Shown one piece after another: positions 13,323-61,358 of a stretch of DNA of 64,000 nucleotides. Origin of the DNA: an uncultured Acidobacteriia bacterium. Its GTDB lineage: Bacteria; Acidobacteriota; Terriglobia; Bryobacterales; Bryobacteraceae. Position numbers and translations under genes: made by a program. Numbering within the stretch: the stretch's first letter is position 1; the number at the start of each line of letters is the position of its first letter. The notes beneath the pieces are model-generated. The model made no database searches, was not told the DNA's origin, and saw only the letters and a list, made by a program, of their open reading frames with translations. The stretch lies in the NCBI GenBank assembly GCA_903923395.1, contig CAIXXM010000089.1, positions 62,001 through 126,000 of the forward strand, in the 5' to 3' direction.

Positions 13323-14824
13323 TTCTTCTCTTCTCCTTGTTTCCTGTCTGCTGTGGTGTAACTTCCCCCCAGCGCGCGGCTAAGTGAACTGCGCGCCACA
13401 CTGAAGTTGTACTTGGCGGCAATCAAAGCCTGTTCCGCTGAAGTTACCTGCTGCTGCGCCTGCACCACCTCCACGGTGTTGGTGACGCCTGCGGCGAAAC
13501 GTTCCCGCGACTGCCCCAGGGACTGATTGGCCAGGTCAACATTCGCCTTCGCCACCTCCACCTGCTGCTGGATGGATTGCAAGTCGAGCAGTGCCGTCCG
13601 GATTTGATAATCCACCTGGCCCTTTAAATCCGCCAGTTCATTCTCCCGCTGCTGCAGCGCAGCCTCCGCCTGCAGAATGTCAGACTGGATACGGCCGCCA
13701 TCGAAGATGTTGAACTTAACGGAACCCGTAACTGTAAACGTGCCGTGTGAGTTCGAAAGATTCGGACCAATCGCGCCATAATTGGCACTTAGGGACAGCG
13801 TGGGGTAACGTTCCGCTTTTGCGGCATCCACGGCAAGACGGGCGGCGAGGACCTGTGCTTCCTGGCTCTTATAATCTGCGCGCGATGCCAGTGCGGTCTG
13901 CAATGCGGCTTCCGGTGACGGAAGATCCAGCCGCGGCTCTGTAACAGCATCCACCAGTACCAGCGACTGACCAAGCGGAATCCCGGTCAACCGTGCCAGT
14001 GTTAACTTATCTTTCTCAAACTGGTCTGTCTGTGCCAGCAACAACTGTTGCTGGGTCTTTAACTGGACCAGCGCGCGGGTTGCATCCAGACCCATGCCGG
14101 TTCCCGCAGCTTGTTGATCCAGCGCCTGAACATGAAGGGCCCGGGCCACTTCAATCTGCGCCTTCAACGACTGGATTTGTGCCGTATCCGCGACTGCCAG
14201 AAAGTAGGCATTTGTAACTGCCTGCACCAGCAGATCTTCTGCATCCTTCCGCGACAATGCCGCCGCCTGCATGCCAGCCTCTGCCGTCTTGAGATTCCTA
14301 TATGCAGTCCAGTCAAAGAGAGTGGCGGAAGCATTCGCCCGGACATCGGTATACCCGAATGGCCCGACGATCTTGGGCGCGAATGGGATCTTAATCCCCA
14401 GCGCCTGCAGGTTGGTTTGCTGCGCATTCTCTGAAGCGCTGCCCGTCACACTGGGTAACAGAGCACTGAGCGCCTTTACGCGCGCGGCCCTCGCCGTGGC
14501 ACTCCCCGAATCCCGCACCAAAATCCCCAAGTTCGCACGAAGCCCACGCGCGATTGCATCACGCAGTGTCAGAGTGAGCGGTTCGCCCGCGGCATTCCCG
14601 GACGCAACGCTGCCTTGCTGCTGCGACAGAGAGAGATTTGGAATTGTAGGTGCGGCCTGCGCCTGCACAGTCGGCGGACCCGACGCACCACCGCCGATTT
14701 GCCCGCATACCGGAAGAACAATAGCCGCAGCCAGGAGCGTAGTAGTGAAAGTTTGGGACGTGCAGCAAGCACCTCGGCGGATCAAGCAGTTTCCCCCACG
14801 CCTCCCAGCGTAGGGAAAGTTCAC
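13319..14824 (-). CDS. TolC-family outer-membrane efflux channel
   Basis: Outer-membrane channel of the tripartite pump; 501 residues as annotated. It contains the two structural repeats of TolC proteins: LTLRDAIARGLRANLGI at about 85-100, and Gln/Ala-rich helices ending in GQSRERFAAGVTNTVEVVQAQ. The N-terminus carries a hydrophobic export signal (TTLLAAAIVLPVCGQ). The first 20 residues, rich in Arg and Cys, look atypical, so the true start may be at a later codon nearer the signal peptide. First gene of the tolC-emrA-emrB-HK-RR run. No regulator-type gene lies upstream. Confidence 0.88.
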   Translation of the reverse strand: MNFPYAGRRGGNCLIRRGACCTSQTFTTTLLAAAIVLPVCGQIGGGASGPPTVQAQAAPTIPNLSLSQQQGSVASGNAAGEPLTLTLRDAIARGLRANLGILVRDSGSATARAARVKALSALLPSVTGSASENAQQTNLQALGIKIPFAPKIVGPFGYTDVRANASATLFDWTAYRNLKTAEAGMQAAALSRKDAEDLLVQAVTNAYFLAVADTAQIQSLKAQIEVARALHVQALDQQAAGTGMGLDATRALVQLKTQQQLLLAQTDQFEKDKLTLARLTGIPLGQSLVLVDAVTEPRLDLPSPEAALQTALASRADYKSQEAQVLAARLAVDAAKAERYPTLSLSANYGAIGPNLSNSHGTFTVTGSVKFNIFDGGRIQSDILQAEAALQQRENELADLKGQVDYQIRTALLDLQSIQQQVEVAKANVDLANQSLGQSRERFAAGVTNTVEVVQAQQQVTSAEQALIAAKYNFSVARSSLSRALGGSYTTADRKQGEEKK

Positions 14825-14979
14825 TTTCCGGCTCTTGCGGGGGATTGCTCCATTTGTTCCTGAATTGCGTCATGCCCCATGAACCCAACTTAATGGTTCC
14901 TTAATGGCAGATTCATCCCCACCCGATACTCTTGGTTCAGACGATCTTTCGTCAGAAAGTTCTCCAGGAGAAAAACACC

Positions 14980-15111
14980 ATGAAAAAGTTTGCCGCAATT
15001 GCCATCGCCCTCGGCCTGATGACCAGCGCCGTTTCGTTCGCTCAGGACACCACCAAGAAGACCACCAAGAAGAAGTCCAAGAAGGCGAAGAAGACCGACG
15101 CCAAGATGTAG
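14980..15111 (+). CDS. Small secreted lysine-rich protein, copy 1 (43 aa)
   Basis: This gene is too short for the ORF track. ATG at 14980 follows a good ribosome-binding site (CCAGGAG, 7 bases upstream). The product has a textbook signal peptide (MKKFAAIAIALGLMTSAVSFA). The mature part is only about 22 residues, nearly all Lys, Thr, Asp and Ser (KKTTKKKSKKAKK), ending in KTDAKM. A near-identical paralogue is at 18435, and the nucleotide identity is highest in the signal peptide and last codons. A perfect 12-bp hairpin follows 13 bases after the stop. Function is unknown; a strongly basic periplasmic or extracellular peptide is what the sequence shows. The presence of two conserved copies, each with its own RBS and hairpin, argues that it is real. 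Confidence 0.8.
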   Translation: MKKFAAIAIALGLMTSAVSFAQDTTKKTTKKKSKKAKKTDAKM

Positions 15112-15124
15112 TGATTCCTGGTTC

Positions 15125-15152
15125 GGGGCAGCCTGGTCTTCCAGGCTGCCCC
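15125..15152 (+). terminator. Perfect 12-bp hairpin after small protein copy 1
   Basis: GGGGCAGCCTGG pairs exactly with CCAGGCTGCCCC around a TCTT loop. No T-run follows, so it could be a Rho-independent terminator without a strong U-tract, or an mRNA-stabilising 3' hairpin. It also lies 20 bases past the stop of the convergent methyltransferase and could serve both. Confidence 0.7.
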
Positions 15153-15171
15153 GCCCATCACCAAACCCCTC

Positions 15172-16187
15172 CTAAACCTGCGGCTTTTTCGCCAAAATCA
15201 ATGGCGGGGGCCCTGGTGCCTCCAATTGACGGGCCTCCACAAACCCTGCCTCCGTCAACCACTCCCTGATCTCCTCAAACGAATACGTTCCGCCCGAATC
15301 TGTGTTGACCAGCATGTTCACCGCAAAGAACAGGCCGCTCCCCGGACCCGTGCGATCCGCATTCACCAGAAACTCCGCAATTGCAATCGTCCCGCCCGGT
15401 GCCAGAGCCCGGAAGGTCTTCGCCAGCAGTGCTTTGCTGCGCGCTTCCCCCTCACTGTGGAGAATGTGGCCCAGCGTCGCCGCCTGATAACCATCGCCGA
15501 AATCGGCCTGCAAGAGATCCCCTTCACGGAAAGAAAAGCGGTCCGCGACACCGAATCGCGCCACGGTCTTCCGCGTCACGGGAATCACGTCTGCCCAATC
15601 CACCGCCGTCACCCGAACCCCCGGGGAGCTTTGCGCCATGGCGATACCCCACACACCGGAACCCGCCGCGAGATCCAGCACCGACGCCTTACCCAATTGC
15701 AGATGCGCCGCCAGAACCTTCGCCGCCGGATAGCTCAAGGGCAGAATGTCATTCACGAATTCCTGAAAGAATTCCGCACCCGGCCCCTCCTGATTCACAG
15801 CACCGGCAGCCTTGCCCGTGCGGACCACTTCATTGAGAGAGCGGCACTTCGGCAGCAGATGCTCGCTGGTGTGGCGGATCATGCCGCCATGAAAGCCCGG
15901 TTTGGTGCTGACCAGAAACGCGGAACTCTCCGGCGTCAACGAGTAATTCCCCGCCTGGTCCTTCGCCAGAAACTGCAGCCCCACGAGCGCATTCATAATG
16001 GCCGCAAGCCCCCCGGTGTGGACGCACCAGTCGCGGAGGCTACTTCTTCAAGGCGCATCGGACCGGAATCCAGCACATCGAACACGCGGTGACGCACCGC
16101 AGCCTCCAGAACCAGCGTGGGGACATAGCCCCAGGCAAATTGCAGGATCCGCTCAGGCGTGAGGGGTTGAGAAGTGGATGTTTCCAT
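15172..16187 (-). pseudogene. SAM-dependent O-methyltransferase (acetylserotonin/hydroxyneurosporene OMT-like), frameshifted
   Basis: Two adjacent minus-strand ORFs form one protein. The upstream piece (16187-15993) is the winged-helix dimerisation domain (RILQFAWGYVPTLVLEAAV, FDVLDSGPMRLEEVASATG). The downstream piece (to 15172) continues it and contains the SAM-binding motif VLDLAAGSGVWGIAMA and an acidic motif II (VTAVDWADVI). The join lies in a G6 run near 16015: one extra G restores the reading ASTPGGLAAIMNALVGL. It is thus either a real one-base deletion, a slippery homopolymer, or an assembly error. Both halves are otherwise intact, suggesting a very recent event. Small-molecule O-methylation is the family role; the substrate is unknown. 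No biosynthetic partner genes are adjacent. Confidence 0.85.
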
Positions 16188-51814: not shown

Positions 51815-52780
51815 TTACCCATGATTGATCCTGCGCGCCTCCTGCAGGAACCGGGTCAGCGGACCAGTCACATGATCGCGGTTATAGGCGAGAGCGAAAG
51901 TGAAATCGGCGCAGGGGTCTTCTATCGGGATGGCCCGGGTGCGCGGCCCGCAGAGTGTTCCGGCGCTCTCGGGGGCGAGGCCCGCGACGCCACCAAGCTC
52001 GACCACCTTCATGAGTTCCTCAAACGAGGAGCAGGTATGTCCAGGCAGCAGAGGCACGCCGCACATGGTGGAGATGCGGCAGTTATGGTCCGTGCCGACG
52101 GCGGTGCGGACGCTGGCCACGGGGTAGCGGGAAAGTTCACGGAGCGCGATGCGGTGACGTGCGGCGACCGGGTGATCGCCAGCGATCAGCGCTACTGCGG
52201 ATTGGCGGAAGAGTGGCTCAATGATCAGCGGCTCACTTTGCTGCACGGGTAACATGAGCAATCCTCCGTCGACGGAGCCGGAGCGGATGAGGCGGCCCTG
52301 ATCGATGGAGTCCACGCGTTGCAGGGCGAACGTGACGCCGGGTTCGTGGCTGGCGAACGCTTCGAGCAAACGGTTGAGCATAGGCACAGGGAAGAACTTG
52401 GTCACTGCGATGGCCAGTTGACCGACTTCGCCAGCGGCAGCGCGGTTGGCGAGATGAACAGCGCGGGTAACGCTATTGAGGATGCCGTGCGCTTCTTTGA
52501 GAAAGGCCTGGCCGCTTTCCGTGAGGGTCACAGTCCTGGCAACGCGGTCAAACAGAGGCACGCCGACGTAATACTCGAGATCACGAATCTGGCGGCTGAG
52601 AGGCGGCTGGGAGATATTCAGGAGCTTAGCGGCCTTGCCGAAGTGCAGGGTTTCGGCCACCGCGACAAAGTAACGCAGGTGGCGCAGTTCGATGCCTGTA
52701 TCGATATCGGGCAGACCGACGTCATGCGGGGACTGGGCTGGATAACCTGTTTTGATGCTGAGGACTGCAGCTGCGGACAT
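51815..52780 (-). CDS. LysR-family transcriptional regulator
   Basis: 321 residues from the ATG at 52780, which has GAGGAG 10 bases upstream; the track start at 52831 would lie in the terminator of the cytochrome operon. Helix-turn-helix: RHLRYFVAVAETLHFGKAAKLLNISQPPLSRQIR. The effector domain follows from about residue 100. It is separated from the cytochrome operon by a strong terminator, so it is not part of it. Target unknown. Confidence 0.9.
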   Translation of the reverse strand: MSAAAVLSIKTGYPAQSPHDVGLPDIDTGIELRHLRYFVAVAETLHFGKAAKLLNISQPPLSRQIRDLEYYVGVPLFDRVARTVTLTESGQAFLKEAHGILNSVTRAVHLANRAAAGEVGQLAIAVTKFFPVPMLNRLLEAFASHEPGVTFALQRVDSIDQGRLIRSGSVDGGLLMLPVQQSEPLIIEPLFRQSAVALIAGDHPVAARHRIALRELSRYPVASVRTAVGTDHNCRISTMCGVPLLPGHTCSSFEELMKVVELGGVAGLAPESAGTLCGPRTRAIPIEDPCADFTFALAYNRDHVTGPLTRFLQEARRINHG

Positions 52781-52829
52781 ACCGGAAATCTCCTCGTTAC
52801 GGGGAGGAGTGATGCACGTGTTTTGCCAC

Positions 52830-52870
52830 AAAAAAAGACCCGTTTTGCGCTTGTTGACGCAGAACGGGCC
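52830..52870 (-). terminator. Rho-independent terminator of the cytochrome/MtrCAB operon
   Basis: On the minus strand CCCGTTCTGC pairs with GCAAAACGGG (one G-T wobble) around a ten-base loop, followed by TC and then seven T. It lies 22 bases after the cytochrome b stop. Confidence 0.9.
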
Positions 52871-52891: not shown

Positions 52892-54325
52892 CTATTTCAG
52901 GCTTTCGATGTAGGCAACCAGCGCAGCCAGGTCATCAGCAGGCAGGTCAGAGGGCATCATGCCTCCATCCTGCATGTTCGCGGCCGGCTTCTTCAAAAGC
53001 GCTGTCATCCGTTCGGCATTGTATTTCGAACTGATGCCGATGAGCTTCGGACAGACACCGCCGACACCCTTGTCGCCGTGGCAACCGCTGCAGCCCTGGG
53101 TTTCGAAAAGCTTCGCGCCTTTGGCAAGAACGGGGTCCACCGGCGCGGCGGGAGCAGCACCGCTGACTTCCGGCTCAAAGGGAGCCTTCATGAAGTCTTC
53201 GGAGGCCTTTTCCTGCGCGATGATCTGCTTCGCGTAGACGGGGTTGCTGTGATCGTTGTTGTAACTTACCGCACCCAAGCCGAAGAGGGCGAGGAAGATA
53301 CAAACATAAGTTCCCACTGCGATAGGACGCTTCCAAGGCCGGCGCTCCATGCTGCGGTCGAGAAATGGCAGGCTGGCGAAGGCGAAGGCGACGATACCGG
53401 GAATCACAACGACTCCGAGGAACGAAAGTGCGCCGGGCCAATACTTCAGCCACTGGAAGATAGGAATGTAATACCATTCCGGCCGCGGCAGGTAACTGGT
53501 ATCTGACGGGTTTGCCTTCGGGCCGAGTTCAAAAGGCATGGTCTTCGCGATAAAGGCCATGACCGCGATGATGCCGAGGGAGACAATCGCATCCATCACC
53601 ACCTGGCGGGGATAAAACATTTCGGCAGGCAGTTTCGGTTCGACCGGATGTTCATTGATGGGGCCCGCGGAACCGGCCTTGCGGAAGAACAGCACGTGAG
53701 CTGCGATCACACCGAAGATACCGGCAGGAATCACCATGACGTGTGCCACGAAGAAGCGCGACAGGGTAAGTGTTCCCATATCGACGCCGCCGCGCATCAG
53801 CGACTTGATCCAGGCCCCGACAAACGGCACTTCGCCGGCGATATTCGTGCCGACTGCGGTAGCGAAGTAAGCCTTCTGGTCCCAGGGCAGCAGATAGCCG
53901 GTGAAGGCCATACAGAGCACCAGCGCGAAGAGTACGCAACCGGAGAGCCACAGCACTTCGCGTTTGCCTTTATATGCGCCGTAGAGAAAGGTTTGGGTGA
54001 TGTGGAGTAACAACAGAATCACCATGGCGCTCGAACCATAGGCGTGCACGCTGCGGATGAATCCACCTGCCGCAACCTGCTTGGTGATGTAAGCGACAGT
54101 GGTGTGGGCGTGGTCCGCCGAAGGGACATAGTAGAGCGACAGGAAGATCCCCGTCACCACCTGCGAGAGAAAGATAAAGATCAGGGCCGACCCGAAGACG
54201 TAGGCGAAGCGCGCGCCGCCGGGGATGGGCTCATTCAGGGTTTCGTTGATGAGGGCATCAATGCCGGTCCGCTCATCGAGCCAACCGTAGATGCCTGTGT
54301 GTTTGGTCTTGGCATGTTCGCTCAT
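52892..54325 (-). CDS. Cytochrome b (bc-type complex) with fused C-terminal cytochrome c domain
   Basis: 477 residues. Eight or so helices with the bis-His positions RSVHAYGSSAMVILLLLHITQ and RFFVAHVMVIPAGIFGVIAAH, and the Qo-site motif PRPEWYYIP. After residue about 395 comes a class I cytochrome c domain with the heme motif CSGCHGDKG and a candidate distal Met in GGMMPSDL. Quinol-oxidising core of a bc complex. It is the last gene of the seven-gene operon, with Rieske immediately upstream. Confidence 0.93.
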   Translation of the reverse strand: MSEHAKTKHTGIYGWLDERTGIDALINETLNEPIPGGARFAYVFGSALIFIFLSQVVTGIFLSLYYVPSADHAHTTVAYITKQVAAGGFIRSVHAYGSSAMVILLLLHITQTFLYGAYKGKREVLWLSGCVLFALVLCMAFTGYLLPWDQKAYFATAVGTNIAGEVPFVGAWIKSLMRGGVDMGTLTLSRFFVAHVMVIPAGIFGVIAAHVLFFRKAGSAGPINEHPVEPKLPAEMFYPRQVVMDAIVSLGIIAVMAFIAKTMPFELGPKANPSDTSYLPRPEWYYIPIFQWLKYWPGALSFLGVVVIPGIVAFAFASLPFLDRSMERRPWKRPIAVGTYVCIFLALFGLGAVSYNNDHSNPVYAKQIIAQEKASEDFMKAPFEPEVSGAAPAAPVDPVLAKGAKLFETQGCSGCHGDKGVGGVCPKLIGISSKYNAERMTALLKKPAANMQDGGMMPSDLPADDLAALVAYIESLK

Positions 54326-54349
54326 GGCTGTATCTTCTTTCGTTCGGGC

Positions 54350-54877
54350 TCAGCCGATGACTTCTTTTTCCGGGACCAATTGTTTGAAGTACTTATAGTG
54401 CACCGCAAGGCGTCCATCTTTCACCTGGGCTTCCAGGGTGTCCATGCCGCGCGGCGCGGGTCCGCCGGTGCATTTGCCATCCGGTGAAAAGGCGGCGGAA
54501 TGGCAGGGGCAAACGAAGCTGTTCTTGGCACCGTTCCACTGCACGGAGCAGCCGAGGTGGGGACAGATAGCGGTGAGCACCTGGAGCTTGCCGGACGTGT
54601 CTTTGGTGATGTACACGACCTTCTCCTGCACGGTCTTGCGCCAGCCATCGAGTTGCTCCACAATCACCGGGCGCTGCACGGGCGTGGTGAGGGATTCGAA
54701 GTCAGAAATAGGCCCGATGTCGGACCACTTTTCGGCCTCTCCCTTGGCGCTCATCGGATAAAGCAAAAACTTCACCAATGGCACGCCCATCAATGCTCCG
54801 GTGATGGTGCCGCCGATCGCCAGCAACCACGCCGTAAAGCCTCTCCGGCTCGTCTCGCTTCCTGTTGTTTCGCTCAT
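54350..54877 (-). CDS. Rieske [2Fe-2S] protein of the bc complex
   Basis: 175 residues. Tat-type N-terminus (SRRGFTAWLLAIGG) serving as membrane anchor. The cluster-binding motifs are CPHLGC and CPCHSAAF, spaced as in QcrA/PetC. It transfers electrons from quinol to cytochrome c. It sits 24 bases before the cytochrome b start. Confidence 0.95.
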   Translation of the reverse strand: MSETTGSETSRRGFTAWLLAIGGTITGALMGVPLVKFLLYPMSAKGEAEKWSDIGPISDFESLTTPVQRPVIVEQLDGWRKTVQEKVVYITKDTSGKLQVLTAICPHLGCSVQWNGAKNSFVCPCHSAAFSPDGKCTGGPAPRGMDTLEAQVKDGRLAVHYKYFKQLVPEKEVIG

Positions 54878-54909: not shown

Positions 54910-55242
54910 CTATTGCTTGATGCTGCGGATGTAACCCACAATGCTGGTGATTGTGGCTGCATCCAGCGACTTTTCAAACGCCGGCATCGGGGGCTTGCCC
55001 TTGGCGATGATGGCAGTCAGTTCCGCGTCGGTCTGTTTCTGGACGTCTGCCGAGCGGAGGTCGCGAAGCTTGAATTTCTTGCCCATGGGGGTTTGGCCCG
55101 CGCCATCCTGGCCGTGGCACATGCCGCACTTGGCCTTGTAGGTGTCCTCGCCGGCGGCAAACACTGCGGCGCAGAGCAACGACCCGAGCGCAAGCGCCCG
55201 GATTCCAGTCCTCATTGCGTTTCTCATATCCGTATTCAGCAT
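54910..55242 (-). CDS. Small monoheme cytochrome c
   Basis: 110 residues. A signal peptide (IRALALGSLLCAAVFA) is followed by one heme motif, CGMCHGQDG, and a distal Met candidate in KPPMPAFEKS. A typical small class I electron shuttle of the periplasm; the position between Rieske and the tetraheme gene suggests that it links them. Confidence 0.92.
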   Translation of the reverse strand: MLNTDMRNAMRTGIRALALGSLLCAAVFAAGEDTYKAKCGMCHGQDGAGQTPMGKKFKLRDLRSADVQKQTDAELTAIIAKGKPPMPAFEKSLDAATITSIVGYIRSIKQ

Positions 55243-55243
55243 T

Positions 55244-56350
55244 CTACTTCCTTCCCTTTCTTGTGTTGAGGTAAACGATTAAGTCAGCCATTTCCGAGCC
55301 TTCAAACCTCGGCCATTTGATCTTTTTCTCAAGCATTACCGCGAGCATCTGCGGGCCATGATGCCAAAGGGCAGAGACCATCGTAATGCCGGAAATGTTA
55401 CCGCCGCCGTTGTTGAGATCGGGGGCACCGTTCGCCGCATTGTCATGGCAGGTGGAGCACTGGCGGTTGACGAAGACTTTGCGTCCGCGTCCAGCATCCC
55501 CCCCGCCCTCAAAGAACTTCTCCGCCCAAACGTAACTGATCAGTTCGCGCATTTCGCCGGGGTTCAGGCGGGTGGTCGCTTCGGGCATCTTGAGACCGTG
55601 TCCCCAGAGGTGCGCGGCGACGTCAGTCAGGGTTTCCCCGCTAACGTGTTTGCCAACGGAGGCCTGCGTGGTGTGGCACTTCGCGCAGCCCTTTTCGCGG
55701 AATAACTGGTCGCCATTCCGTCCGGAGGTGGTTTGGAACGAACTGGCGAAGTTTTTCACTTGGGAGAGATTGCGCAGGTAGACGAGCAAATCCGTAAGGT
55801 CCTGACCGCTGACTTCGGGCGGTTTGATTCCCTGGTTGGCAAGTTCGCCGCGCATGTCTGCCGCGTGGTTCCACATCGCTGTGGTCAATGCAATCGGGTC
55901 GCCAATTGAGGCCCATTCGGAGACGGGTTTCGCCAGGGAATTTGGAGTTGCCGCGATGGCGTGGCACTTGGTGCATGACTTCTCCGTGAAGACCCGCTTG
56001 CCGCGGCCCGCATCTCCTGGTTTTTCAAAGAAACGTGCGGAATAGAAGTAGGCGAAGAGGTCTGCCGCGGCTTGGTCATCCATGTTGAAGCCGGCCACGT
56101 TGCGGGAGCGCATGGCACCCCACATTTCCGGCGCGTGATTCCACATGGTGCTGGCCAGCGTGGCCGGAGAGAAGTTGCGGTCCATGTGGCGGCCGAGGTC
56201 TGGGGCAATTCGCCCACCCCTGCCATTGACGCTGTGGCATTCGACGCAATGCTCTGTTTCAAAGAGCTTGGCACCACGCGCGGAATCGGCCTCCAGCACG
56301 GCGGCACCGGCGGGCATGCAGAACAAGAAGACCAGACAGAAACGCTTCAT
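55244..56350 (-). CDS. Four-domain (tetraheme) class I cytochrome c
   Basis: 368 residues with a signal peptide (FCLVFLFCMPAGAA). Four tandem units of about 85 residues, each with a heme motif (CVECH, CTKCH, CAKCH, CSTCH) and a distal methionine in a matching segment (WNHAPEM, WNHAADM, WGHGLKM, WHHGPQM). The units are recognisably related to one another, so the protein arose by internal duplication. It lies between the small cytochrome c and the MtrB-like porin and could bridge the periplasm. Confidence 0.92.
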   Translation of the reverse strand: MKRFCLVFLFCMPAGAAVLEADSARGAKLFETEHCVECHSVNGRGGRIAPDLGRHMDRNFSPATLASTMWNHAPEMWGAMRSRNVAGFNMDDQAAADLFAYFYSARFFEKPGDAGRGKRVFTEKSCTKCHAIAATPNSLAKPVSEWASIGDPIALTTAMWNHAADMRGELANQGIKPPEVSGQDLTDLLVYLRNLSQVKNFASSFQTTSGRNGDQLFREKGCAKCHTTQASVGKHVSGETLTDVAAHLWGHGLKMPEATTRLNPGEMRELISYVWAEKFFEGGGDAGRGRKVFVNRQCSTCHDNAANGAPDLNNGGGNISGITMVSALWHHGPQMLAVMLEKKIKWPRFEGSEMADLIVYLNTRKGRK

Positions 56351-58308
56351 CGCGTATACCTCACTCCAGTGGTGAACAGGCTGCTTCGAAAATCTTCATA
56401 TTGATAGTAGGGTTCGTGGAAGCCGTAGTAGCGCCATTCCGAGAACCATGCGAGTTTCCGGGTGACAGGCAGACTGAGCTTCACCACAGGCTGATAGAAG
56501 CCGGTGGGGCGGCTGCCGGATGTGGTGACAAACGCGCCGCCGAGGGACAGCGCCGGTTTCAGTCCGAAGAGCATGGCTGGTTTCGCTTCGAGGAACCCAT
56601 TGACCGTGTGGACATTCTCACGGTAGCGGTCTGAGAGCTGGACGCCGGTGTAAGGTTCCAGATAAGGCACGTCAGACCGGGTTGTGGCACGTGTATAACT
56701 TCCCTGCAGGCTCCAGCGCTTCTTTTCAGGCGCATAGATGAGGGAGGCACTCAGCTGCTTCGATAGAAATGAGTACCGGCCGGAAGTACCAGCCTGTTGC
56801 GAGGGCGGGTTCTCATTGTTGAGGATACTGGCATCGATAGCAGCTTCCAGACCCGGGCGGAAGTGATACGCGGAACGTATGCGAACCTTCTGGTATTGGT
56901 AGAGGCTGGTGCGGAAGTAAGCGCCATTACTGGCACCGGCTTCCACGTCGCCATGCAAAGAGAGCTTGGCATAGGGCTTATAAGTGATCCCGGCAAGAGC
57001 CACGTTGCGGTGCAGGGTGACGTGGTCCATATAAGCCAGCCCGGCAGCGGGAAGAGTAAGGTCATTCGCATCTGCCCAGACTCTGCGATAGCCGCCGCGC
57101 AGAGCTAACTTCGCCGTGGCGTCAAACAGCACATCGGTCTGCAACTGCGAGTAGTTGGAGGCGAGCGAAGAAGTTAGCAGAGAGGCCGTAGTGACGGGGT
57201 TCTGTTGTGCGGCCGCATTTGAGGCATCATGGAGACGGTCCGTCAGCCAGGATTCGAGAATCTTGACTTTGCGGAAGGGCCGCACTTCAGCACCCGCGCT
57301 GCCGGTTTGATGCGGAAGCTTGGCACCGCTTTGCAGGGCATAACGCTGCGCGGAGTAGAACAGGATCTGACTGGGAATCACGAAACTGCCCGCGTCATTC
57401 ATCTGGTAGTTGACGGTGTTCTTTGGCTGGCTGAAGAAGAACTCTCCGCGAAGGTCCAGCCAGGAAGTTACACGGGCGGAAGCCAGTGCCTTGGAATAGA
57501 TACTAGTGCCACGGACCCCATAGGCTTCCGCGAAACTGCTCAGATAGAGTTGCTGGCCAAAATAAGGAACTGGATTGTTACCGGTATTCGGCTTCCCCGT
57601 GCCCTGGTATTCGGTCTGGTCATCCTTATACTGGGAGCCGCCCTGCTCCAGCGTCAGGTGAAGACGTCGGGCATCAATTCGGACACCGGCGCGTGCGTAA
57701 AGCTGGGAGTTACGAACAACTCCAGGGAGCGCGTATTCATTATTGCCGGTAACAAAGGTGTTAATGGAGTTGCCGGTTTCTGAGGAACGCTCGAACTCAC
57801 TATAAGGTGTGATCCAACTCCATGTAATGAACTCCAGTCGGACGTCCGTCAGGTGTTCATGAACATCTGAGGATTGCTCATTGAGCAGCACGCCGCGCTG
57901 CAGCAGAGGGTCCGCGAAAGATGGCAGGTTGCTGAAGTAGGCGATATCCCGGTAGTTAGTCTCCAGTTCGTAGAGCTTTGCTTTGCGGACCCGTGCGTGT
58001 ACGGTGGCATAAGGTTCACCACCCCAGCCGGAAGCCTGCAGCTCAAAGCGGTCAAAGAGCCGGTGTTTGGGGTCGTTATAACTGAGATCCGCACCAATGA
58101 GTTTGGGACCTTCGCCTAAGTTGATGAGGCTGCGGTAGACATTCCAGTTGCCGCCATTGGCTGTCTGCCAGCGGTAGCCGAGATCCACCCAGCCGGTTAG
58201 CGATTGTTCTGCGGTTGGCACTGGACTGGGCGCCTTGGCGACACCGCCGTCGGTCTGCCCGTGCAACAGCGCGCCGCCCATGAATAAAGTGCTGAGGAGT
58301 TTCTTCAT
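56347..58308 (-). CDS. mtrB: MtrB/PioB-like outer-membrane beta-barrel of an electron conduit
   Basis: 653 residues. Signal peptide KKLLSTLFMGGALLHG, then many alternating strands with aromatic girdles (FDRFELQASGWGG, WLDLRGEFFFSQ). No cysteine is visible, so the N-terminal CxxC of Shewanella MtrB is lacking. The identification depends mainly on its place between an MtrA/DmsE-type decaheme gene and a cytochrome gene, together with length and barrel pattern. Overlaps both neighbours by 4 bases. Confidence 0.8.
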   Translation of the reverse strand: MKKLLSTLFMGGALLHGQTDGGVAKAPSPVPTAEQSLTGWVDLGYRWQTANGGNWNVYRSLINLGEGPKLIGADLSYNDPKHRLFDRFELQASGWGGEPYATVHARVRKAKLYELETNYRDIAYFSNLPSFADPLLQRGVLLNEQSSDVHEHLTDVRLEFITWSWITPYSEFERSSETGNSINTFVTGNNEYALPGVVRNSQLYARAGVRIDARRLHLTLEQGGSQYKDDQTEYQGTGKPNTGNNPVPYFGQQLYLSSFAEAYGVRGTSIYSKALASARVTSWLDLRGEFFFSQPKNTVNYQMNDAGSFVIPSQILFYSAQRYALQSGAKLPHQTGSAGAEVRPFRKVKILESWLTDRLHDASNAAAQQNPVTTASLLTSSLASNYSQLQTDVLFDATAKLALRGGYRRVWADANDLTLPAAGLAYMDHVTLHRNVALAGITYKPYAKLSLHGDVEAGASNGAYFRTSLYQYQKVRIRSAYHFRPGLEAAIDASILNNENPPSQQAGTSGRYSFLSKQLSASLIYAPEKKRWSLQGSYTRATTRSDVPYLEPYTGVQLSDRYRENVHTVNGFLEAKPAMLFGLKPALSLGGAFVTTSGSRPTGFYQPVVKLSLPVTRKLAWFSEWRYYGFHEPYYQYEDFRSSLFTTGVRYTR

Positions 58309-59252
58309 CGCAACAGATTCCTGTCCACGTGACTGCCGTGGATCTTCTGGTGGCAGGTTGTGCAGTTCTGATACCGCGCGGAACGCAGGTCATGGAAGGC
58401 AGGCGGAATAACGCCCGTTACCGCACCCGGCTTCGCCGCAGCGAGGGTACCCTGCAGATTCGCATGACAACTGAGGCATACCAGCCGGACTTCCTGCTGT
58501 GTCAGCATCTTCGGATTCGCGGAACCATGCGGCTCATGGCAGGAGTTACAGCCTTCAAAGCGCACTGGCGCATGCTCAAAGGTGAAGGGTCCACGCTTGT
58601 TTCCGTGACAACTGAAGCAGGGTGGCTCATTCGATGTTGACGTTCTTTGCAGCGGGCTCTTGATGCTGCCGTGGGGATTGTGGCAATCGACGCAGGTCAT
58701 TGCGTTCTGCGTCACCTTATGCGCATGAGGCTTTTCGAATTGTGCCTTGACGGTGAGGTGGCAACTGGAACAGAGCGTGTTGACAGCCTCTGCCTTGCGG
58801 GCCACTAAACCATACGGTCCATTGGCGTGGACTTTGTGGCAGGAGACACAGGCGATCTGGTTCTTTACGTGCGCGCTTTCCACAGGGCCGTCATGCCCGG
58901 GCTTGCTCACGTGACAAGTCACACAGAGCTTGTTACTTTCCGAAGCTACCAGTTTGGCGGGATTGCGGATTTCCTTGGCCTCCGCGGTGCCGGCGTGGTT
59001 GCTTCCGGGGCCGTGACAGGATTCGCAGCCTTTTCCGTCCCAGCCGCGCCTCTTATCGGTCTCAACAATCTGGTGGGGATTTTTCTTGAATGCCGTGCCG
59101 ATATCTTCGTGGCAGGTCATACAGGTTTCTGTACCCACGAAGGTCGCCCTGGCGGGCGGTGCTTCGGGCGGGGTGGAAGCAGCAGCGGCAGCGGGCTTTT
59201 CCTGGCCCGCTGCCGCTATTGTTACTAACAGAAGTGCTATAAGTCGCAGCAA
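58305..59252 (-). CDS. mtrA: DmsE/MtrA-type decaheme cytochrome c
   Basis: 315 residues with a signal peptide (LRLIALLLVTIAAAG). Ten CxxCH motifs are visible: CMTCH, CESCH, CVTCH, CVSCH, CSSCH, CVDCH, CFSCH, CNSCH, CLSCH and CTTCH. The GTETCMTCH start and length match the MtrA/PioA group of periplasmic cytochromes that insert into MtrB. It overlaps the mtrB gene by 4 bases. Confidence 0.93.
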   Translation of the reverse strand: MLRLIALLLVTIAAAGQEKPAAAAASTPPEAPPARATFVGTETCMTCHEDIGTAFKKNPHQIVETDKRRGWDGKGCESCHGPGSNHAGTAEAKEIRNPAKLVASESNKLCVTCHVSKPGHDGPVESAHVKNQIACVSCHKVHANGPYGLVARKAEAVNTLCSSCHLTVKAQFEKPHAHKVTQNAMTCVDCHNPHGSIKSPLQRTSTSNEPPCFSCHGNKRGPFTFEHAPVRFEGCNSCHEPHGSANPKMLTQQEVRLVCLSCHANLQGTLAAAKPGAVTGVIPPAFHDLRSARYQNCTTCHQKIHGSHVDRNLLR

Positions 59253-59261
59253 TGGAAACCT

Positions 59262-61358
59262 CTAATACTGCGCATGCACTTGACTGACCGAATAGGCCTG
59301 GCCGCTGCCGTGGCAAACCACGCAGCTCTCTCCCAGGATTGTTGTGTTGACCAGAGCGTGAGATGCGGTCTGGACACTCGGGTGGCAACCTGTGCAAGCG
59401 CCGGTGATGGGCTGCACAGAGGGGATTGGCCCTTGGGGATCAAGCACGGGAGCCAAACCGAAGGGCAGGTTCTGTTCACTGCCTTTTACGTGGCAGATGG
59501 AGCAGTTCCGCAGGTCGCCGCCATTCCCTTGCGGGCTGAAGGCGGGGTAACGGGTTCCGGAAAAGTCATTGTGGCTTCCGCCGTAACCGACCACCACATA
59601 GGGTTTGCCGCCCTGCGCCACAACGTTGGGGCCGGAGTGGATGCGGTGCACCAGCAGGTTGAAGTTGATTCCCTGCGGAGGCAGCGCCTTGTCGGCGGCA
59701 ACCACAGCGCTGGAGCGGACGCTGACGTCAGAGTTGGACGGGTTATGGCACATCACGCAGTATTCTGTGTTGTTGCGCAAGCCGCCGTGGAGTTGCAGGG
59801 AGACGTGGCAGCCGTTGCAATTATCAATCGCAACCACCTGGCGCCGGGCCTGCACTGGAGTGTTATCCACACTGAAGTAGATCACCTTGTTGCCGCCACC
59901 GTAAGTGACGCTCTGCTGTTTGGTCGTGCCGGGCAGCAGGAGTTCCGTGCGGCGGCCTTCAATGCCGATGGTGTAAGAACCAGTGGCGTTCGCAGGAACG
60001 GCATGGGTAAAGGTGTAAGTACACGTACCGGAGTTATCGCACTTGGAATTGGCAAGTGCATTCTCGGTGACATAGCCGGGGGTTGTCACGTCGCTGCCGA
60101 AGCTGGTGTAACCATAGCCACTGGTCGGACCCGCCATGGTCAGAGACAGTGAGCCGAGTTTGGAGAATGGCACGCCTGCCTTGGAGTTATCCGTAACGGT
60201 GAAAGTAACCGTCGGCTTGCTGCCGGCGACGCCGTTGTCCACCTTGACCATATTGAAGAACAAGCCTTCGAGCATGCTGGAATCTGTGGGCACCACGTGC
60301 GCACCCTTGATAGAGGCATCGAATTCCAGTTCGCCCTGCGGGACGTGGCAAGTGGCGCACTGTTTGTCGTCAGGTTGCGGGCCACCGGGGTGGTTGACGC
60401 CCGTGGCGAGGTTGACGTCGTCATGGCAGGAACCGCAGACAGCAGCGGATGGCTTGGTCAGGTAATTCGTCTTCTGCACTGCGGCCGCCTTCTGGTTGTG
60501 GCAGGTTTCGCAGCGGCGGGGGTCCGCAGGGAAGACTACGGTGGAGAAATCATTGGAGCCACCGAAAGTATACGGCTTGCCGGCAACAACACTGGGAAGC
60601 TGGGAACCCATGTGGATCTTGTGGATCATCACCTTGAAATCAGGATTGCTGCCCGTGGTGGCATCGCCGGTTTGGGGCTGGTGACAAAGCACGCACATGG
60701 CAACGCCGCGGCGGGAACCGCCATGGTGGGAGAGCTGGTCATGGCAGCCGTTGCAACTCGTGTCAGAGACAACGTCACGCGTCGTCACCACCGGAGAGCC
60801 GTTGGGGACGAAGTTGAACGTGGTGCTGGCGTAGTTGATCGTCAAACCATAGGGAGTAAGATCGCGGGACCCATAGATACCGATCGTATGCGTTACGGTC
60901 GGGTCAAAGTTCGCGGGTGCGGTGGTCTTGAACACGTACTTGTAAGTGCCATCCGCCTGGGCAGTCAGGGTACCGCCGGAATCCGCGCCCGCCTGGGTGA
61001 CAGTGCCAAGCGCTCCGGTGGAGGTTCTGGAAGTGTAGGACGTGTACTGCGCCTGCCCTTGCGGGATGTAGGCAGCGATAAAGCTGGTTTTGACGATGCC
61101 GGGAGTCGTGGTGCCGGTATTGTCGAGGTTGAGCCCGTTGGGGTCCGTGATGGAGAAAGTTGCTGTGATGGTGCCATTGGCGGCTACCTGGGCACTCAAT
61201 ACCTTGAATGCCAGACCCGGACGCACGAAGGCGACTACTTCAGGACTGAGGTAAGCGGCCTTGTCATGCGGCCCGGGAACTCTCTTGGGCGACCCGGCGA
61301 GCGCCACGGTTGCAAAAAGTGCGATTGCTCCGATGATGTATCTTTTTATCCGCGTCAT
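59262..61358 (-). CDS. mtrC: OmcA/MtrC-family decaheme surface cytochrome
   Basis: 698 residues. Ten heme motifs lie in two pentaheme groups (CNGCH, CVLCH, CETCH, CGSCH, CATCH at about 205-335; CNGCH, CVMCH, CSICH, CTGCH, CVVCH at about 515-690), with beta domains between them, as in MtrC. The signal peptide (IIGAIALFATVALAGS) has no lipobox cysteine, unlike Shewanella MtrC, so anchoring must differ. First gene of the operon. Terminal electron exit to minerals or other extracellular acceptors, or entry from them. Confidence 0.9.
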   Translation of the reverse strand: MTRIKRYIIGAIALFATVALAGSPKRVPGPHDKAAYLSPEVVAFVRPGLAFKVLSAQVAANGTITATFSITDPNGLNLDNTGTTTPGIVKTSFIAAYIPQGQAQYTSYTSRTSTGALGTVTQAGADSGGTLTAQADGTYKYVFKTTAPANFDPTVTHTIGIYGSRDLTPYGLTINYASTTFNFVPNGSPVVTTRDVVSDTSCNGCHDQLSHHGGSRRGVAMCVLCHQPQTGDATTGSNPDFKVMIHKIHMGSQLPSVVAGKPYTFGGSNDFSTVVFPADPRRCETCHNQKAAAVQKTNYLTKPSAAVCGSCHDDVNLATGVNHPGGPQPDDKQCATCHVPQGELEFDASIKGAHVVPTDSSMLEGLFFNMVKVDNGVAGSKPTVTFTVTDNSKAGVPFSKLGSLSLTMAGPTSGYGYTSFGSDVTTPGYVTENALANSKCDNSGTCTYTFTHAVPANATGSYTIGIEGRRTELLLPGTTKQQSVTYGGGNKVIYFSVDNTPVQARRQVVAIDNCNGCHVSLQLHGGLRNNTEYCVMCHNPSNSDVSVRSSAVVAADKALPPQGINFNLLVHRIHSGPNVVAQGGKPYVVVGYGGSHNDFSGTRYPAFSPQGNGGDLRNCSICHVKGSEQNLPFGLAPVLDPQGPIPSVQPITGACTGCHPSVQTASHALVNTTILGESCVVCHGSGQAYSVSQVHAQY

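Follow-up and report, generated by a model that had tools for sequence, protein, structure and literature searches.

How might an Mtr-type conduit in the outer membrane of an acidobacterium be joined to the respiratory chain in the inner membrane? The question is raised by a single gene in the window, the stretch of 64,000 nucleotides from a member of the Bryobacteraceae that was analysed here. The gene encodes a cytochrome c with four heme motifs. An earlier note described it as four tandem class I units, placed it between a bc complex and an Mtr porin, suggested that it might be a rigid periplasmic wire, and took such a protein to be foreign to the Mtr or Pcc systems known to it. The features of the region are collected in Table 1.

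Table 1. Features of the cytochrome cluster, in window coordinates.
Feature	Position	Strand	Remarks
LysR-type regulator adjoining the cluster	51815..52831	-	sequence only
Cytochrome b with C-terminal fused class I cytochrome c domain	52892..54325	-	PEWY motif, two His pairs
Rieske iron-sulfur protein	54350..54877	-	CPHLG / CPCH cluster motifs
Small monoheme class I cytochrome c	54910..55242	-	PF13442 51 bits; directly behind the tetraheme stop
Four-domain (tetraheme) class I cytochrome c	55244..56350	-	368 aa, Sec-type signal sequence, predicted soluble periplasmic
Unit 4 of tetraheme cytochrome	55253..55495	-	residues 286-366; CSTCH 55445-55459, WHHGPQM 55346-55366
Unit 3 of tetraheme cytochrome, shorter	55517..55729	-	residues 208-278; CAKCH 55673-55687, WGHGLKM 55586-55606
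Unit 2 of tetraheme cytochrome	55757..56014	-	residues 113-198; CTKCH 55961-55975, WNHAADM 55853-55873
Unit 1 of tetraheme cytochrome	56039..56287	-	residues 22-104; CVECH 56234-56248, WNHAPEM 56123-56143
MtrB-type outer-membrane beta-barrel	56347..58308	-	AF2 fold best match 6r2q_B; 4-base overlap with tetraheme gene
DmsE/MtrA-type decaheme cytochrome	58305..59252	-	10 CXXCH; TIGR03508 244 bits, above cut-off
OmcA/MtrC-type decaheme surface cytochrome	59262..61358	-	TIGR03507 505 bits, above cut-off

That one open reading frame holds four tandem class I cytochrome c units is confirmed. It contains exactly four CXXCH motifs (residues 35, 126, 222 and 298) and exactly four WxHxxxM motifs (residues 70, 160, 249 and 329), and the Pfam profiles Cytochrom_C (PF00034, E 8.6e-29) and CBB3 (PF13442, 1.3e-21) each match it above cut-off for the whole protein, in four stretches. 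When the heme motifs are masked, the alignments among units 1, 2 and 4 still score z = 14-18 relative to shuffles, which rules out chance repeats as the source of the pattern. The expectation that all units align holds in full for these three and in weaker form for unit 3, which is ~12 residues shorter than the others (z = 5.6 against unit 4, 3.7 against unit 2 and 2.1 against unit 1, likewise masked). No CXXCH residue varies across 60 homologues, and in WxHxxxM the W is kept in 97-100%, the H in 92-98% and the M in 83-98%; in unit 3, the H is present in 59 of the 60 and the M in 50. Motifs, masked alignments and conservation together therefore put the four-unit pattern far beyond chance. A plasmid search with the protein returned only single-domain cytochromes (32-40% over a quarter of its length), and the profile PF11783 (Cytochrome_cB) had no match anywhere in the genome of the window, the controls likewise being without a match, so that this search is uninformative.

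Structure prediction, which the earlier note had proposed as a check, gives one well-defined, compact four-domain body in a heme-free AlphaFold2 model (pLDDT 88, pTM 0.84). Because of these values, the arrangement of the domains relative to one another can be regarded as a confident prediction; a rigid wire would be a reading of the AlphaFold model only. In units 1, 2 and 4 of the model, the WxHxxxM segment lies within one long helix. A Foldseek search of the whole protein against the PDB found nothing under E 0.001, with weak single-domain matches to NorC and cytochrome c. For a single unit, the closest natural PDB relatives are QcrC-type diheme cytochromes c (E about 3e-10). In the alignment with QcrC, its NMP methionine falls on the M of WxHxxxM, which suggests His/Met ligation of the hemes; yet in unit 3 the H is better kept than the M, and MtoD, a class I cytochrome encoded next to MtoAB, is bis-His (PMC4412085), so that a distal methionine is only a candidate ligand.

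On one side of the gene, mtrC, mtrA and mtrB lie contiguously upstream on the same strand, and its reading frame opens within the final codons of the porin gene, so that the two genes share 4 bases at the porin stop. The porin of the window has no Pfam match of its own, PF11854 (MtrB/PioB) included, a profile matched by 5 of 16 aligned members of the porin family. Its predicted fold (pLDDT 84) is closest to MtrB (6r2q_B) among all PDB chains, with a TM score of 0.68. Together with the MtrA and MtrC profile matches and the Rieske and cytochrome b genes on the other side, this bears out the location between a bc complex and an Mtr porin.

The link with Mtr extends well beyond the window. At E 1e-15, a tetraheme homologue was found in 134 of 200 genomes of the family. 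The co-occurrence that the earlier note had asked about is strong: 125 of these 134 genomes also have the porin (Fisher odds ratio 15.7 over the 200 genomes, in a test that ignores relatedness), with 31 genomes holding the porin without the tetraheme cytochrome and 9 the reverse. A scan of genome contigs gave 80 named loci, nearly all from Bryobacterales, Solibacter or unclassified Acidobacteriota MAGs, of which 74 had enough upstream sequence to be informative. In 59 of the 74, across many genera, the tetraheme gene directly follows the porin gene (mtrB) and shares its strand; the other 15 are solo homologues with no Mtr neighbour, adjoining unrelated genes, and most low-identity homologues are without Mtr neighbours as well. 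On the homologue tree the linkage labels cluster, with 8 changes against 28 in shuffles. The same family also has MtrCAB clusters that lack the tetraheme cytochrome (L248-L259), and clusters with only the porin have NapC-like pentaheme and monoheme genes beside it, or nothing. Because of these porin-only clusters and the genome counts, the tetraheme cytochrome is a frequent but not obligatory part of this type of Mtr system. In three of the MtrCAB or porin clusters (L248-L250), a NapC-like pentaheme gene is found directly behind mtrB, in the place of the four-domain cytochrome.

On the other side, the tetraheme, monoheme, Rieske and cytochrome b genes form one tight run with gaps of 1, 32 and 24 bases, and the Rieske motifs, the PEWY Qo motif and the paired histidines are all intact. 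This bc complex is rare. Relatives of its cytochrome b at 69-71% identity occur in four other genomes (five of 200 with the window), one of which holds a second copy at 60% identity. Most family members have a different type of cytochrome b, ~34-42% identical to that of the window, and none of six sampled loci of this common type, at about 34-38% identity, adjoins mtr genes. Four of the six window-type copies adjoin mtrAB or the tetraheme gene: the window, L237 and L239, in which the bc genes follow mtrA (TIGR03508 above cut-off) and a barrel gene, and L238, where the tetraheme gene is decayed. The remnant in L238 (7688-8425) runs through three frames, frameshifted and partly deleted, and is followed directly by the monoheme, Rieske and cytochrome b genes, which are intact. 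The bc-linked monoheme cytochromes are 46-62% identical in window-type bc loci, against 34-40% in Mtr loci without that bc complex. From the synteny of the six copies and these identities, the tetraheme-monoheme-Rieske-cytochrome b block existed in at least two genera; judged by gene order, the bc block is paired with mtrAB in two further genera. A LysR-type regulator also lies beside the mtrAB-bc cluster of L239 (3565-4524), and L237 has a Crp-type regulator at that place.

The bc neighbour claimed for the cytochrome is thus real in the window, but as a constant partner it is ruled out. It is an exception within the family, adjoining the tetraheme gene here and, as the decayed remnant, in one other genus only, and most relatives are without it. 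Nor is it the only quinol oxidase of its genome, a reading ruled out by an ACIII-aa3 oxidase operon (contig 83) and a second Rieske/b6 pair (end of contig 13). The former appears to be the main oxygen chain, and a second heme-copper oxidase is encoded besides it. Since both the operon and the second pair are present, the bc complex of the window need not be the housekeeping one.

Some relatives have other quinone modules near the Mtr genes. A quinone-type gene is nearby in 27 of 74 non-redundant porin-adjacent loci, an indicative fraction since these loci were partly hand-picked down the ranking. The modules are NapC/NirT-like pentahemes (PF03264), CbcL-like proteins with 9 c-hemes and a cytochrome b561 (PF01292), or Rieske/cytochrome b pairs. 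Near the Mtr cluster of L126, a 719 aa protein with eight CXXCH (13871-16027) is encoded next to genes for cytochrome b6 and a Rieske protein. A second Rieske/cytochrome b6 type occurs with nonaheme and pentaheme genes near the Mtr clusters of L040 and L100, with ExtP/ExtKL-like profile matches in L040, and the pair on contig 13 of the genome of the window is similar to it.

We consider the tetraheme cytochrome to be, more likely than not, the periplasmic relay of the group 5 Mtr systems of Bryobacteraceae, linking an inner-membrane quinone module with MtrA. The evidence consists of sequence and prediction throughout: the units, their conservation, the synteny, the family assignments and the predicted porin fold are what the analysis shows, and the periplasmic location, the electron transfer, its partners and direction and the His/Met ligation are inferred. 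The four fused class I domains would act together as a compact body carrying electrons across the periplasm, with MtrA, seated in the outer-membrane barrel, as its outer partner. The inner-membrane module of the window would be a Q-cycle type Rieske/cytochrome b complex with a fused cytochrome c domain, plus the small monoheme cytochrome; in relatives the same slot would be filled by a NapC/NrfH-like pentaheme or a CbcL-like module, or have nothing nearby. Running outward, electrons would pass from menaquinol through the bc complex and the cytochromes to MtrA, MtrC and an extracellular oxidant. We lean slightly towards this direction over the inward one, because the NapC-like and CbcL-like modules of the relatives are similar to Geobacter menaquinol oxidases (PMC12307469) and a search of the genome found no RuBisCO.

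Inward flow is the alternative to be taken most seriously, even if we hold it to be the less probable. Fe(II), reduced humics or partners would supply electrons, which would enter through MtrC and MtrA and pass by way of the tetraheme and monoheme cytochromes to a terminal oxidase, in part uphill via a reversed bc complex, as proposed for MtoD/bc1 and Acidithiobacillus. Class I His/Met hemes are usually higher in potential than MtrA hemes. Such potentials favour electron uptake, as does the precedent of MtoD, a cytochrome of +155 mV proposed to feed bc1 or an oxidase (PMC4412085), and the genome has both the ACIII-aa3 operon and the second heme-copper oxidase. A further point for uptake is that the two remaining window-type bc copies follow open reading frames that, judged from the sequence alone, have N-terminal heme motif(s) and barrel-like sequence (L240, 251-1378; L241, 4607-6604) and might be cytochrome-porin fusions similar to Cyc2; profile matches to these frames were empty or class I only. 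CymA/MtoC-type proteins are able to work in both directions, so that the resemblance of the relatives' modules to menaquinol oxidases, which counts against uptake together with the RuBisCO result, is not decisive.

Whichever the direction, the preferred reading of a relay to MtrA has to be weighed against that of a general periplasmic carrier or buffer serving NrfD complexes, bc complexes, oxidases and Mtr, whose place behind mtrB would be incidental. Homologues do serve NrfD clusters elsewhere. In Acidobacteriota outside the family, four-unit homologues close clusters that encode pentaheme, molybdopterin-type, 4Fe-4S and NrfD proteins (Act/Qrc-like; profiles were run on L192, L185 and L187, and the others were classified from the sizes and heme counts of their genes). 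Since such a cluster is also a quinone module, it speaks for the relay as well. MtrA-like genes lie beside the NrfD-type cluster in these three loci, and L185 also has an MtrB/PioB barrel. Apparent NrfD-cytochrome fusions of 806-822 aa (L183/L185/L187) were rejected, the N-terminal part in L185 having no Pfam match and looking like an out-of-frame extension. The NrfD-linked homologues, with a full-length unit 3, make up one side of a fully supported branch, and the Mtr-linked and solo homologues the other, unit 3 being shortened on the Mtr side. The earlier note had counted homologues widespread without Mtr genes as evidence against its idea; such homologues exist, in the 15 solo loci, among most of those of low identity and in the NrfD clusters, and they fit a general carrier, but the Mtr link of 59 of the 74 loci stands. 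The immediate same-strand position in many genera, the co-occurrence with the porin and the clustering of labels on the tree make a general carrier improbable. Equally unlikely is a tethered-diffusion carrier with four domains acting singly and no fixed wire, for which the three tethered monoheme domains of PgcA are a precedent (PMC11520253), given the inter-unit gaps of ~7-10 residues, the lack of PT-type linkers and the defined mutual placement predicted for the domains.

A more far-reaching version of the relay, on balance unlikely, is that the Q-cycle, proton-translocating bc complex is dedicated to the Mtr conduit through a four-heme class I wire, which would serve as a common adaptor for swapped bc, NapC-like, CbcL-like and NrfD modules. 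If true, the bc complex would conserve energy from extracellular electron exchange. Acidobacteriota are among the most abundant soil bacteria, and a dedicated bc complex and interchangeable quinone modules, connected by a four-domain cytochrome, would change how much energy their extracellular respiration is taken to yield. The four-domain build and the bc link suggest a distinct wiring of respiration to the cell surface.

Among known systems, the nearest is the group 5 of Baker et al. 2022 (PMC8805035), in the parts of that paper drawn on here. A predicted periplasmic tetraheme cytochrome is described there immediately downstream of mtrB in all Acidobacteriia MtrCAB clusters surveyed, so that the existence and place of the gene are already published and the claim of a protein outside the known Mtr systems is not supported. 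The match is by description and taxon only (predicted periplasmic, four hemes, immediately behind mtrB, Bryobacterales). The same parts of the survey record, by way of description and not as a defining trait, no inner-membrane quinone oxidoreductase near group 5 mtrCAB clusters, the point at which the Mtr link to the respiratory chain in Acidobacteriota is at issue, whereas the window has Rieske and cytochrome b genes (52892-54877) and its relatives have NapC-like or CbcL-like genes. They do not give the domain make-up of the cytochrome, which here is four class I units. Four points are new with respect to these parts and to our literature searches: the architecture of four class I domains, the broad survey, the association with a rare bc complex and the similar arrangement in NrfD clusters. 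The searches found no Mtr-bc link in Acidobacteriota, which does not prove its absence.

MtoD of Sideroxydans is likewise a cytochrome of class I fold whose gene adjoins those of an MtrAB-type conduit, MtoAB, and it has been proposed as a periplasmic shuttle to bc1, an oxidase or CymA (PMC4412085). It has a single, bis-His heme, whereas the protein of the window fuses four units in which H and M are conserved. PgcA of Geobacter also combines several monoheme cytochrome domains in one protein of extracellular electron transfer, with long PT linkers and a reach to the cell exterior (PMC11520253). The protein of the window differs in its four domains, short links and predicted periplasmic position as a neighbour of MtrB. 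The QcrC-type diheme cytochrome c of actinobacterial bc1 resembles it at the level of the single unit. QcrC itself has two domains, is membrane-anchored and is part of bc1-aa3. In Act-type complexes, ActE is monoheme. The likeness to Act/Qrc-type NrfD complexes lies in the homologues with four WNH units that end such clusters in other Acidobacteriota, and the difference in the bc genes that the window carries in place of NrfD genes.
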